From NCBI GenBank assembly GCA_022226955.1, contig CP092079.1, positions 1,147,053-1,211,052 on the forward strand: a stretch of DNA of 64,000 nt. The letters are read 5' to 3'. Under the pieces are notes generated by a model. It was not told the origin of the DNA, did not search any database, and worked only from the letters and a program-made list of their open reading frames with translations. This DNA comes from Nitrospira sp. GTDB lineage: Bacteria; Nitrospirota; Nitrospiria; Nitrospirales; Nitrospiraceae. The translations under genes were made by a program, and so were the position numbers. Shown here piece after piece: positions 2,502 through 9,503 of the stretch. Positions within the stretch are counted from its first letter, which is position 1. Each line of letters starts with the position of its first letter.

Positions 2502-3709
<1,208 letters not shown>

Positions 3710-5633: not shown

Positions 5634-5711
5634 ACCCATCCAGCGTCTCCACGCTCTGCGCTCGTCCTGTTGATCGACGAGTGCCTCTTTTATTATCAAC
5701 GGAGGCCTGTG

Positions 5712-7019
5712 ATGCGGTATGTGTGCATTCTGTCACGATTCATTTCTCTTCGCGCCTGGTTATTTCCCCTGTTGAGCCTCGTCTGTGCGCTTACTGTTTT
5801 GACCGTCTCAACGACCGCACTGGCCGCACAAGACGTTGCGGAAAGCGATCCCCTTACAATTGATACCGCAAGCATTGACGGACTGATTCATACCAAACAG
5901 GAAACTATTCTCCGACTATTGCCGCGGCCTTTGCCAGCTGACTATACCCCAGCTGAGCTGGCGGAATTTGAGCGGCGGATTCGCAACCTCAGTCTCTTCG
6001 ATCACGTACAGGTCACGCGCGACGGCCAAGCCCTGACCGTGACTGTTCAGGAAAAAGTCACCTTGGTGCCGATCCTGAACTTTACCAGCGGCAGCAGCAT
6101 GAAGGACCTGAACGCCACCGTCGGGATGGTGGAATACAACCTGTTCGGCACCGGCACACAACTTGGCGGCCAATTCAATTACAGCCAGCGCGGACCGAAC
6201 GTCGAGCTCTGGCTGTCGCAACATGCCTTCGAGCCCGACCGGTGGGCGAAAGAGATCAAAGGCTTCTACAACGTCAATGGCATCCGGTTTGCCGAGTCAG
6301 CATCGACCTGGACCAGAAATCGTATTGGAAGCGAGTTAGAGCTGAGGGGGCCCTACAGCTACGGTTCGCCATTGCGGTATGAAATCGTCGCGGAATTCTA
6401 CCGCGAGCAGATCGAAGACCTGAAAGGCGGCCGCCCTCAGCCGGTCGGATACTATGTGGGCCTGATCCCTGAACTGACCTGGGACAAGTATCACTGGCAC
6501 GACCTGGTGCCGAGCGGGTATCGCATCGCATTGGAACTTCGACCCGGCTTCTTATTCGGCGCCAACCAGCAACGCCACGAAGCCAAGCTACGCTACCTTC
6601 AGGGCATCCCCCTGGGTTCACACACCGTCTTCATGATCAACAGCGTGGCGGAAGCGGTGAACAACAGCGGCAACCCGAATCATAGCCTCTTAATCGGCAG
6701 CATCGCCGGCATCCGAGGACTGTCCGACAATCTCTATCGCAACCGCGCGCAGGCCTATACCAACCTAGAATTCCGGCATGCCATTGCAGCGGCATCGCGC
6801 TGGGCGGTGCAAGGTGTCCTGTTCACCGACTTCGGCGCCTTTCAATCGTTCAAGGAGGATGGAACCCTCCAGAGCTGGCAGGGAGCCATCAATGTGGGAA
6901 CCGGCATACGCGTCATCCCCACCTTTCTCTCCAACACACTCCTGCGGATCGATGTGGGCCATCTGTTCTCGCCGGACCAGAATACGCTGGTCCAGATCGG
7001 CATCACCCAGTACTTCTAA
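5712..7019 (+). CDS. Omp85/BamA-like outer membrane beta-barrel protein with one POTRA domain
   Basis: This 435-residue outer membrane protein has a signal peptide (SRFISLRAWLFPLLSLVCAL to about ALAAQD), then one POTRA-like domain at roughly residues 40-120 (TKQETILRLLP, FERRIRNLSLFDHVQVT) and a bacterial surface-antigen barrel to the end. The barrel contains IGSIAGIRGLSDNLYRNRAQ, the conserved substrate-turn region of Omp85 proteins, and it ends in the C-terminal Phe of a BAM substrate (TQYF). BamA has five POTRA domains, so this is a smaller member of unknown cargo. The ATG at 5712 follows GGAGG by six bases, which rules against the earlier in-frame ATG at 5670. Confidence 0.8.
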   Translation: MRYVCILSRFISLRAWLFPLLSLVCALTVLTVSTTALAAQDVAESDPLTIDTASIDGLIHTKQETILRLLPRPLPADYTPAELAEFERRIRNLSLFDHVQVTRDGQALTVTVQEKVTLVPILNFTSGSSMKDLNATVGMVEYNLFGTGTQLGGQFNYSQRGPNVELWLSQHAFEPDRWAKEIKGFYNVNGIRFAESASTWTRNRIGSELELRGPYSYGSPLRYEIVAEFYREQIEDLKGGRPQPVGYYVGLIPELTWDKYHWHDLVPSGYRIALELRPGFLFGANQQRHEAKLRYLQGIPLGSHTVFMINSVAEAVNNSGNPNHSLLIGSIAGIRGLSDNLYRNRAQAYTNLEFRHAIAAASRWAVQGVLFTDFGAFQSFKEDGTLQSWQGAINVGTGIRVIPTFLSNTLLRIDVGHLFSPDQNTLVQIGITQYF

Positions 7020-7122: not shown

Positions 7123-7437
7123 ATGGACAGCGAAGAGACACTTCCCGTCGTCGAATTGAGCGTCACACCCCAATACAGCCAGGCCAACCCCTGGGTGATT
7201 CAGGCGATCTCAGGATTCTTATCGGCGTATTTTATGGAGCACCCGGGATTCCGAGTGCTGCGACAGACCGATGAGGCCGCGTCTGGTATGCATGTGTGGA
7301 CCTGTGAGATTCCCGCTTCGCTGAAAGTGCCCCGCCTGCTCAAACGGCTGCAAGCCGACATCCCGCCATCGAAAGTCGTACCGCCTGACGAAGCAGCCCA
7401 AGCCCCGGCTCGATATGTCATCGACACCATTATCTAA
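7123..7437 (+). CDS. Hypothetical protein, 104 residues
   Basis: This is a soluble small protein of unknown function (MDSEETLPVVELSVTPQYSQ to RYVIDTII). It has no signal peptide, Cys motif or recognisable domain. It contains paired hydrophobic helices (VIQAISGFLSAYFMEH) and a basic stretch VPRLLKRLQAD. It lies 103 bases after the Omp85-type gene with an intervening hairpin. The start at 7123 is the first ATG in the frame beyond the upstream stop, and codon use looks like the core genes. Confidence 0.55.
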   Translation: MDSEETLPVVELSVTPQYSQANPWVIQAISGFLSAYFMEHPGFRVLRQTDEAASGMHVWTCEIPASLKVPRLLKRLQADIPPSKVVPPDEAAQAPARYVIDTII

Positions 7438-7657
7438 CCTTCGAATTGACCTTTAAGATATTGCCATTAGGTCAAACCTATGCGAGGCAACAATCCTCCC
7501 CCCCATAAAGCTGGGTAGAAGCACTCTGTGGAAACCTGGTACGACTGACTCCGTCACACTTCCATGCGAGGATTCCATAGCTCTAATCAACGCATAGGGA
7601 GATCCCCGTCACTAAAAAATGTCGCGAGCATCGACTCGTTTCAGGCAGAGGGAATGA

Positions 7658-7804
7658 ATGAAACTGTGTCGTGGGTGCTGTGAGCATGCCAAATTTCTTT
7701 CGCCCAAATTACTTATCGAAGGTACAGAGATACAAATTGAATGCCTACGAAAGCCATATGACATTGACTTGCTCTTGAATATAAAAAACCAATTGGGGAG
7801 ATGA
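7658..7804 (+). CDS. Cys-rich mini-protein preceding an Mrr-like nuclease
   Basis: This 48-residue open frame begins MKLCRGCCEHAKFLSPKLL and ends NIKNQLGR, with Cys at 4, 7, 8 and 29. The leading CxxCC resembles the metal knuckle of zinc-ribbon or HNH-type N-termini. AGAGGGA lies just upstream of the ATG. Its stop is four bases before the start of the nuclease-like gene on the same strand, so the pair forms an operon. The DNA is AT-rich like its partner. Function is unknown; a nucleic-acid-binding accessory or antitoxin-like partner is possible. Short length limits confidence. Confidence 0.5.
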   Translation: MKLCRGCCEHAKFLSPKLLIEGTEIQIECLRKPYDIDLLLNIKNQLGR

Positions 7805-7808
7805 ATCC

Positions 7809-8783
7809 ATGGATCCAAAGCCGGACTACACCTGCTTTCGAGTTCGAATGAAGTACACTGGTAATGATGAGAATAAGGATTACAGCAAAGACGCATGGAA
7901 CCGTAATGAAGTGGGGATTTGGTATGGGGCATGGTCTGCAGAAGATTTTAAATCAGCTCTCACTCAATCTAATCCCAAGAGGATGTTAAATGACTTGCCA
8001 GCTCAAAAACTCATTGTTGATTGGGAAGTCCAATCTCAAACAGTCAAGATGGTCGAGAGGTTTTGCAACATCAGGGATATCGACTGGATCTACGCATGCT
8101 TTGGCGAGGCTATCCATTTCGCTAAAGTTCAAGGGCCTCTACAATCTGAGGTAAACCATGATTTCAGTATAAACGGAGAGCTATGGAAGTACCGAAAAAT
8201 AGTACAGAAAAAAGTTTTCCCGCTACCCCAACTTCCTGACTTCTATAGGCTTATCCCTCAAGCCGGCAGAGGTAATATTTTTCAAACCTGGGGTAACAAT
8301 CGGGAAGCTCTTCGAATTTTAGCTAGCTGCCAAGATACGAATGAAGTAGCAAACACATTCAAACAGATGACGGACAAGGAAAGACTGGACTTCCTTGGCC
8401 CTAGTGAATGGGAGTCCTTTTGTCTAGGCTACTTGATACTTGAAAAAGAGTTTCTTCCGACTGGACTATCAGTCGGCCGAACCCTTGAGGGGCTTGATAT
8501 CGTTGGACGAAATAGTAAGACGGGGCATTCAATACTCGCTCAATGCAAGAAAGATCAAACTATCGAGGAAATCGATCAAAAGTTTATTGAGAAGGTTGAA
8601 CCCTACGGGGTAAAAGCTGATGCATACTACTTTGCCTACGGAGGCCTGAAACAACCCTTTTCTTCTCGGGTCAATGAGATTACGGGCAAGATGATGGAAT
8701 CCTGGATACAATCCGAGCCGGGCAAATCCTATTTCGCCAACTTCTTTCAATCTAGTAGCGACTCCAAAAATACACAGCGATAA
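7809..8783 (+). CDS. Putative Mrr-type restriction nuclease with an N-terminal reader-like region
   Basis: This 324-residue protein has the Mrr-cat pattern of PD-(D/E)xK nucleases near its end: E202 in EWESFCLGY, D230 in EGLDIVGR, and Q245-x-K247 in ILAQCKKD. The ~150-residue N-terminal part (FRVRM, NEVGIWYGAW, RFCNIRDIDWIYACFGEAIH) resembles the layout of EVE/PUA-like modules that read modified bases in modification-dependent restriction enzymes. That comparison is by pattern only. If right, the enzyme would cut modified foreign DNA. It forms an AT-rich islet with the 48-residue gene just upstream. Confidence 0.6.
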   Translation: MDPKPDYTCFRVRMKYTGNDENKDYSKDAWNRNEVGIWYGAWSAEDFKSALTQSNPKRMLNDLPAQKLIVDWEVQSQTVKMVERFCNIRDIDWIYACFGEAIHFAKVQGPLQSEVNHDFSINGELWKYRKIVQKKVFPLPQLPDFYRLIPQAGRGNIFQTWGNNREALRILASCQDTNEVANTFKQMTDKERLDFLGPSEWESFCLGYLILEKEFLPTGLSVGRTLEGLDIVGRNSKTGHSILAQCKKDQTIEEIDQKFIEKVEPYGVKADAYYFAYGGLKQPFSSRVNEITGKMMESWIQSEPGKSYFANFFQSSSDSKNTQR

Positions 8784-9377
8784 AATCTTGGGAGACCTAA
8801 TCCGTCACACCTCGATGCTAGGCTCTCTCCTGAAAGGGGGAGAGCCACATGCACACAGAGATTTCGCTTCATAGCACCCTGCCCATCACCATCGCTGCTG
8901 CCGAGATTCAGCAGAAGGCATGGCATCGCCTCTCCCCTTGCGTTACTGAGCAACCGCTTCACATCTCTGCATCAGATAGCCAAGGAGGGCGCCGCATAGG
9001 CTCTGTCAATTTCAGCGAACTGTCTCACTTCATCGAATAACTCAGATCCGGCCGACATCTTATTGAACAGAAACTCATTCGATTGACAGTCATCAAAAAC
9101 GAATGACTTTGGTGCTCCAGCGTCCGTCTCACGTACCTGATCCTCACAGCCAGAATTGGACCAGACATCGTGCGGAAGTCTGCATCGAAAGAACTAGAAT
9201 CGCTCGAAGAATGTGAGACGAAGGAAAGTGTGCGGGGATGACTGGGAAAAGCGAAGACTACGTCTGGCACTTTTTATTAACAGTACACAAACCGACTAGC
9301 CGGATGGCTCAAATAATTCGATGCGGCGGTCGCTCAAGTTGGAAGGAAGGCTGCGTCTATCTGGAGGTCGTCAGTTA
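8784..9377. other. Non-coding stretch after the nuclease-like gene
   Basis: About 590 bases without a convincing gene. A hairpin lies at 8821-8846. A 63-codon frame at 8849-9040 starts just after GGGGGAGAG but has no recognisable features, so I do not call it a gene. The rest looks like decayed accessory DNA. Confidence 0.5.
8821..8846. terminator. Hairpin downstream of the nuclease-like gene
   Basis: GGCTCTCTCC and GGGGAGAGCC pair at 9 of 10 positions around a short AT-containing loop, 37 bases after the nuclease stop. There is no U-run after the stem, so termination activity is uncertain. Confidence 0.4.
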
Positions 9378-9503
9378 CTATTGAGGCTTGAACCATTCCA
9401 GCACACGTTCGCAGGCGGCTTCGAGCGGGCGATCCGCCATCACCGCAATACCGGCGAGCGCCAACAGACTCATCACAACACTGGCTTCTTCAAAGTCCAT
9501 CAT
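9378..9503 (-). CDS. Small membrane-associated protein, 41 residues
   Basis: A 41-residue frame starts MMDFEEASVVMSLLALAGIA and ends RVLEWFKPQ. One hydrophobic helix (VVMSLLALAGIAVM) is followed by an amphipathic tail. AGGAGG lies eight bases before the first ATG at 9503, which is a strong ribosome binding site. An upstream extension to 9581 lacks support. No family is recognised. Confidence 0.5.
   Translation of the reverse strand: MMDFEEASVVMSLLALAGIAVMADRPLEAACERVLEWFKPQ

Follow-up and report, generated by a model that had tools for sequence, protein, structure and literature searches.

Proteins that join a reader of modified bases to a nuclease in a single chain have already been described. 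Fusions of the EVE-PD(D/E)XK and YTH-like-PD(D/E)XK types have been predicted to act as type IV restriction enzymes, and standalone EVE proteins are reported to have an archaeal DUF499-COG1743-SNF2 neighbourhood as a partner (PMC7641849). VcaM4I combines an EVE domain with an HNH nuclease (PMC7897488), and PADLOC includes PDC-S02, an unvalidated single-gene phage defence candidate with a nuclease at its C-terminus. Here we describe a locus that compares with these systems, found in the window (the whole 64,000-nucleotide stretch of DNA that was analysed) of a Nitrospira-type bacterium. It holds a 48-codon frame, ORF A, followed by a 324-codon frame, ORF B. We favour the reading, at a probability of roughly 0.6, that ORF B was acquired horizontally and is, as a single gene, a candidate modification-dependent (type IV-like) restriction endonuclease, and that ORF A is not an essential partner.

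ORF A and ORF B lie in a recently acquired islet

7437-9373, no strand assigned: acquired islet of 1.94 kb; about 100 bp lie between the same flanking genes in three close relatives (blastn)
7532-7571, plus strand: upstream copy of an imperfect 40-nt direct repeat (73% match; 19 of 22 in the core, TCCGTCACACNTCNATGCNAGG)
7658-7804, plus strand: ORF A, 48 aa, starting MKLCRGCCEH, with C4-x2-C7C8 and C29 (read from the sequence)
7809-8783, plus strand: ORF B, 324 aa, candidate reader-nuclease fusion (from sequence and HMM homology)
8783-8822, plus strand: downstream copy of the direct repeat, overlapping the ORF B stop codon by one base, with which it starts

The site is empty in three close relatives (G279, G255 and G088; loci L039, L040 and L041). 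By blastn, similarity to all three loci ends at 7424-7425 and returns at 9373-9378; of the two flanking genes, the upstream one occupies 7123-7437 and the opposite one lies at 9378 on the minus strand. GC content is about 0.43 at the islet and 0.58 across the window, in agreement with the initial annotation, which had described the DNA as AT-richer than its neighbours. No orthologue of ORF B was found among 174 other genomes of the family, where the best non-self match (E 0.002) is fragmentary. Because of the empty sites in relatives, the low GC, and this absence, we read the islet as a recently acquired insertion. No second copy was found elsewhere in the genome.

The two copies of the direct repeat flank ORF A and ORF B, and at 0 mismatches the repeat core occurs only twice in the 3.6-Mb genome, where it has no other close copy. 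We considered the repeat as a target-site duplication of the whole insert and rejected this, since both copies lie inside 7437-9373; the repeat may instead belong to an earlier step. The remaining 550 nt of the islet (8823-9373) contain only doubtful ORFs, at 8849-9040 on the plus strand and 9025-9270 on the minus strand, with no profile match and no RNA family. A search for RNA families returned none, a promoter scan gave no sigma-70-like site, and a terminator scan gave one terminator-like site that scores below the shuffle mean. The islet carries no defence gene other than ORF B.

At the same spot, a fourth relative, G115 (L042:1820-3120), carries a different insert of 1.3 kb, with a lipoprotein-like gene and a gene for a small, Cys-rich protein that looks secreted; the insertion spot is therefore variable. 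The Omp85-like gene that adjoins the islet (5670-7019) is missing there in L039 and L040, but L041 and L042 have it, so that variation extends over all of the 5.2-9.4 kb stretch. Further away, 5.6 kb upstream, there is a complete, AT-rich EcoRV-type restriction-modification pair at 295-2084 on the minus strand, comprising Endonuc-EcoRV (PF09233, E 3e-121) and a D12 class adenine methyltransferase (E 5e-46); an IS110-type transposase (2546-3634) comes after it. A nuclease that reads m6A in the same cell would need to tolerate the methylation of this EcoRV-type system.

The C-terminal half of ORF B has the features of a PD-(D/E)xK nuclease

8376-8678, plus strand: PD-(D/E)xK (Mrr-like) nuclease core, about residues 190-290 (from PDC-S02, phrog_31197, the family HMM, and Foldseek)
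8412-8414, plus strand: E202, invariant across the family (alignment)
8496-8498, plus strand: D230, invariant, in a DI motif (alignment)
8541-8549, plus strand: Q245-C246-K247, which is QVT, QIT or EVT in relatives (alignment)
8580-8582, plus strand: K258, invariant in 6/6 aligned family members, candidate migrated catalytic lysine

The two frames, the 4-nt gap between them, the CxxCC of ORF A, and E202, D230 and Q245-C-K247 of ORF B are all present as the initial annotation had them. Only two profiles match ORF B: PDC-S02 of PADLOC (E 4e-4, residues 178-302) and phrog_31197 (E 1.5e-3, residues 153-258, hmmscan). Pfam and NCBIfam returned nothing, and no Pfam family, Mrr_cat (PF04471) included, matches at E <= 10. 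Searches with tblastn found no homologue of ORF B in phages, in viral contigs, in 396 genomes of its own phylum or in 399 genomes of another phylum, and the motif GIWYGAW has five chance matches in viral contigs, none of them related to ORF B. Among plasmids, tblastn gave a weak match (E 0.06) to a Natrialbaceae plasmid protein that is itself a phrog_31197 member (E 8e-30), and this protein led to three further haloarchaeal plasmid proteins and to one on a Vibrio harveyi conjugative plasmid.

An HMM built from the four haloarchaeal relatives scores ORF B at 23.0 bits, compared to 10.4 for the best of 20,000 shuffles; with the Vibrio protein added, the score is 26.5 bits (28.3 for residues 141-324) and the best of 40,000 shuffles reaches 11.8. 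The match begins near residue 141-155 and spans the nuclease. In the alignment, E202, C205, G223, D230, I231, K258 and F275 are invariant in ORF B and its relatives of the PHROG 31197 type. Against viral models, Foldseek matches ORF B to Mrr-domain proteins (prob 0.95-0.98). Judged by this homology, ORF B is a distant bacterial member of the uncharacterised PHROG 31197 type family. The archaeal copies of this family have neighbours of a defence type, with genes for DUF499, a DUF1156/HmaB-like methylase, an SNF2 helicase, and AAA proteins; we take DUF1156 to correspond to COG1743, which makes this the neighbourhood also reported for standalone EVE proteins.

Given the HMM homology, the invariant residues, and the Foldseek matches to Mrr-domain proteins, we predict with good confidence that the C-terminal half of ORF B is a PD-(D/E)xK, Mrr-like nuclease. 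The initial designation as an Mrr-type nuclease thus holds as a fold class, but the Pfam Mrr_cat profile does not match. Residue 247 is K in ORF B alone and T in all relatives found, whereas K258, one helix further on, never varies in the alignment and may serve as the catalytic lysine common to the family.

We also considered PDC-S02 as the true family of ORF B and rejected it. ORF B matches the PADLOC profile at E 4e-4, without a full-length match, and can be aligned by eye, but true PDC-S02 members match the same profile at E 1e-60 to 1e-83, and our own HMM, built from 20 collected PDC-S02 sequences, scores ORF B at 6.9 bits compared to 6.5 for the best of 5,000 shuffles. A score at shuffle level makes PDC-S02 only a cousin of ORF B. 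The neighbours of PDC-S02 include type I restriction-modification and SIR2-HerA genes. The N-terminal module of PDC-S02 also matches stretches of Mrr_cat nucleases and of McrB-like AAA proteins in the same phylum (L009, L010, L011, L013, L014, L018); this mobile specificity module has not been named in Pfam.

If ORF B were instead what is left of a defence gene that is decaying or inactive, its reader and nuclease no longer functional and ORF A there by chance, this would fit the occurrence of ORF B in a single genome, with no orthologue among the 174 others, and the apparently empty 550 nt behind it. But the frame is intact over 324 codons, E202, D230, Q245, K247 and K258 are all kept, and the ribosome site is good; we consider a relic very unlikely.

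The N-terminal half of ORF B is a putative reader

7809-8258, plus strand: N-terminal part of ORF B, about residues 1-150, putative PUA-superfamily (EVE/YTH-like) reader (from the predicted model)

In the predicted model, the elements of the N-terminal part follow the order beta-alpha-beta-alpha-alpha-beta-beta-beta. This AF2 model has a pLDDT of 56 and a pTM of 0.47 and was obtained with an alignment hand-forced onto PDC-S02; a single-sequence model (pLDDT 36) was of no use. The top PDB matches of the pLDDT 56 model are VcaM4I and many YTH domains, with E values of 0.07-0.5, all above 0.05. At the level of sequence, residues 1-140 score -2.5 bits against the family HMM, and 49% of shuffles score as high or higher; these residues show no significant kinship to the PDC-S02 or PHROG 31197 type profiles built here. 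The EVE/PUA-like N-terminus in the initial annotation is therefore echoed by weak fold matches in a model of low pLDDT and is not recovered by the sequence test. Going by the model, we think it somewhat more probable than the opposite that this region is a PUA-superfamily reader, and ORF B is likely a reader-nuclease fusion, the reader half being putative.

The top PDB matches of the model also include several type II enzymes, such as EcoT38I, BamHI and HindIII, found by Foldseek, and a PUA-superfamily domain is not detectable by sequence in the N-terminus. Both observations would suit an enzyme whose N-terminus is sequence-specific or targets DNA in some other way, so that ORF B could be, for instance, a housekeeping PD-(D/E)xK enzyme or an orphan of type II-like character, acting independently of modification. 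We regard this as unlikely: a sequence-specific enzyme would need a cognate methyltransferase, and there is none within the islet, whereas the order of strands and helices and the matches to VcaM4I and YTH domains favour a reader. Under our preferred reading of ORF B as a type IV-like enzyme, a divergent reader of the EVE/YTH-like kind would bind modified bases in phage or plasmid DNA that enters the cell and would thereby bring the C-terminal nuclease to cut close by.

ORF A as a probable lineage-specific frame ahead of ORF B

7647-7653, plus strand: Shine-Dalgarno-like AGAGGGA, 4 nt 5' of the ORF A ATG (read from the sequence)
7795-7800, plus strand: Shine-Dalgarno-like GGGGAG for ORF B, within the last codons of ORF A (read from the sequence)

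Placement is what speaks for ORF A. In simulated upstream regions, an ORF that starts with ATG, is 48 codons or longer and ends 10 nt or less from ORF B appears in 1.5% of cases, and such a placement together with a Shine-Dalgarno-like site in 0.25%, by criteria that were picked after ORF A had been seen. Codon usage is neutral, with a log-odds of -3.7 bits compared to -5.2 +/- 4.9 for stop-free shuffles. Translation of this putative small gene is favoured by the ribosome site and the placement. ORF A matches no profile in Pfam, NCBIfam, PADLOC or PHROG, and searches of plasmids, phages, 59 relatives and 14 genomes with a PDC-S02 gene gave no homologue.

The small gene had been proposed to form a pair with the nuclease. 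We looked upstream of 23 related nucleases, 5 of the PHROG 31197 type and 18 of PDC-S02, and none (0/23) is preceded by a comparable small Cys-rich ORF. As far as these related nucleases show, the nuclease occurs without a conserved small frame in front of it, and the collections contain no close orthologue of ORF B or of the pair. The proposed pairing is not borne out by these comparisons.

A true two-gene unit would make ORF A a zinc-binding protein, with C4, C7 or C8, H10 and C29 as ligands, that gates the nuclease as an inhibitor, a sensor or a DNA-binding adaptor. The Cys/His spacing could hold a metal; the tight spacing of the frames, the position of the ORF B Shine-Dalgarno inside ORF A, a placement seen in 0.25-1.5% of simulations, and a direct repeat that flanks exactly these two frames all agree with this. 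Weighed against the lack of any homologue or profile match, the lack of an ORF A-like frame before any of the 23 related nucleases, and the lack of codon bias, such a unit seems quite improbable. Its fullest form, in which a translationally coupled zinc-binding mini-protein silences or aims a modification-dependent nuclease and the repeat-bracketed pair is mobile as a minimal defence cassette of two genes and 1.25 kb, is more improbable still. Most likely, ORF A is a lineage-specific upstream ORF and not an essential conserved partner; perhaps it is a leader that couples translation. The two-gene claim adds little unless ORF A is made.

Comparison with known systems

The analysis links an unannotated family of haloarchaeal and Vibrio plasmids, the PHROG 31197 type, which has no Pfam or PADLOC name, to an islet on a bacterial chromosome, and it identifies the C-terminus of this family as a predicted PD-(D/E)xK nuclease. 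The active site would be unusual, the QxK lysine being replaced by T in the relatives while K258 is invariant. The family is probably a restriction family that current defence-finding tools miss.

Like ORF B, the PHROG 31197 type proteins of haloarchaeal plasmids (L089-L092) and of the Vibrio harveyi p1 plasmid (L097) have a region with W161 followed by the nuclease. They carry QVT, QIT or EVT where ORF B carries QCK, and they are found in DUF499/DUF1156/SNF2 or transposon settings, whereas ORF B stands alone. Their N-terminal halves give no significant alignment to that of ORF B, although the order of elements is similar by eye. PDC-S02 resembles ORF B in its length of about 300 aa and in having an N-terminal module before a C-terminal PD-(D/E)xK nuclease, here with the motif E, E/D and QVK; the match to ORF B is weak, covers residues 178-302, and is not significant at the N-terminus. 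Mrr (PF04471, Mrr_cat) shares with ORF B the fold class and the E-D-QxK reading, but a profile match is absent up to E 10. VcaM4I, the best PDB match of the model, likewise joins a modification reader to a nuclease; its nuclease is HNH and not PD-(D/E)xK, and the match has an E value of 0.07 and a TM of 0.18.

The initial annotation had raised the possibility of an undescribed defence unit. This is too strong because reader-PD(D/E)XK fusions have already been published (PMC7641849). ORF B resembles these EVE-PD(D/E)XK and YTH-like-PD(D/E)XK enzymes as a predicted reader-nuclease fusion in a single chain, with the acidic residues and the lysine of the PD-(D/E)xK nuclease present; it differs in that its reader is not recognised by Pfam or by profiles. 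On the best reading, the ORF B islet is not a new two-part defence system but a new, distant member of a kind already known.
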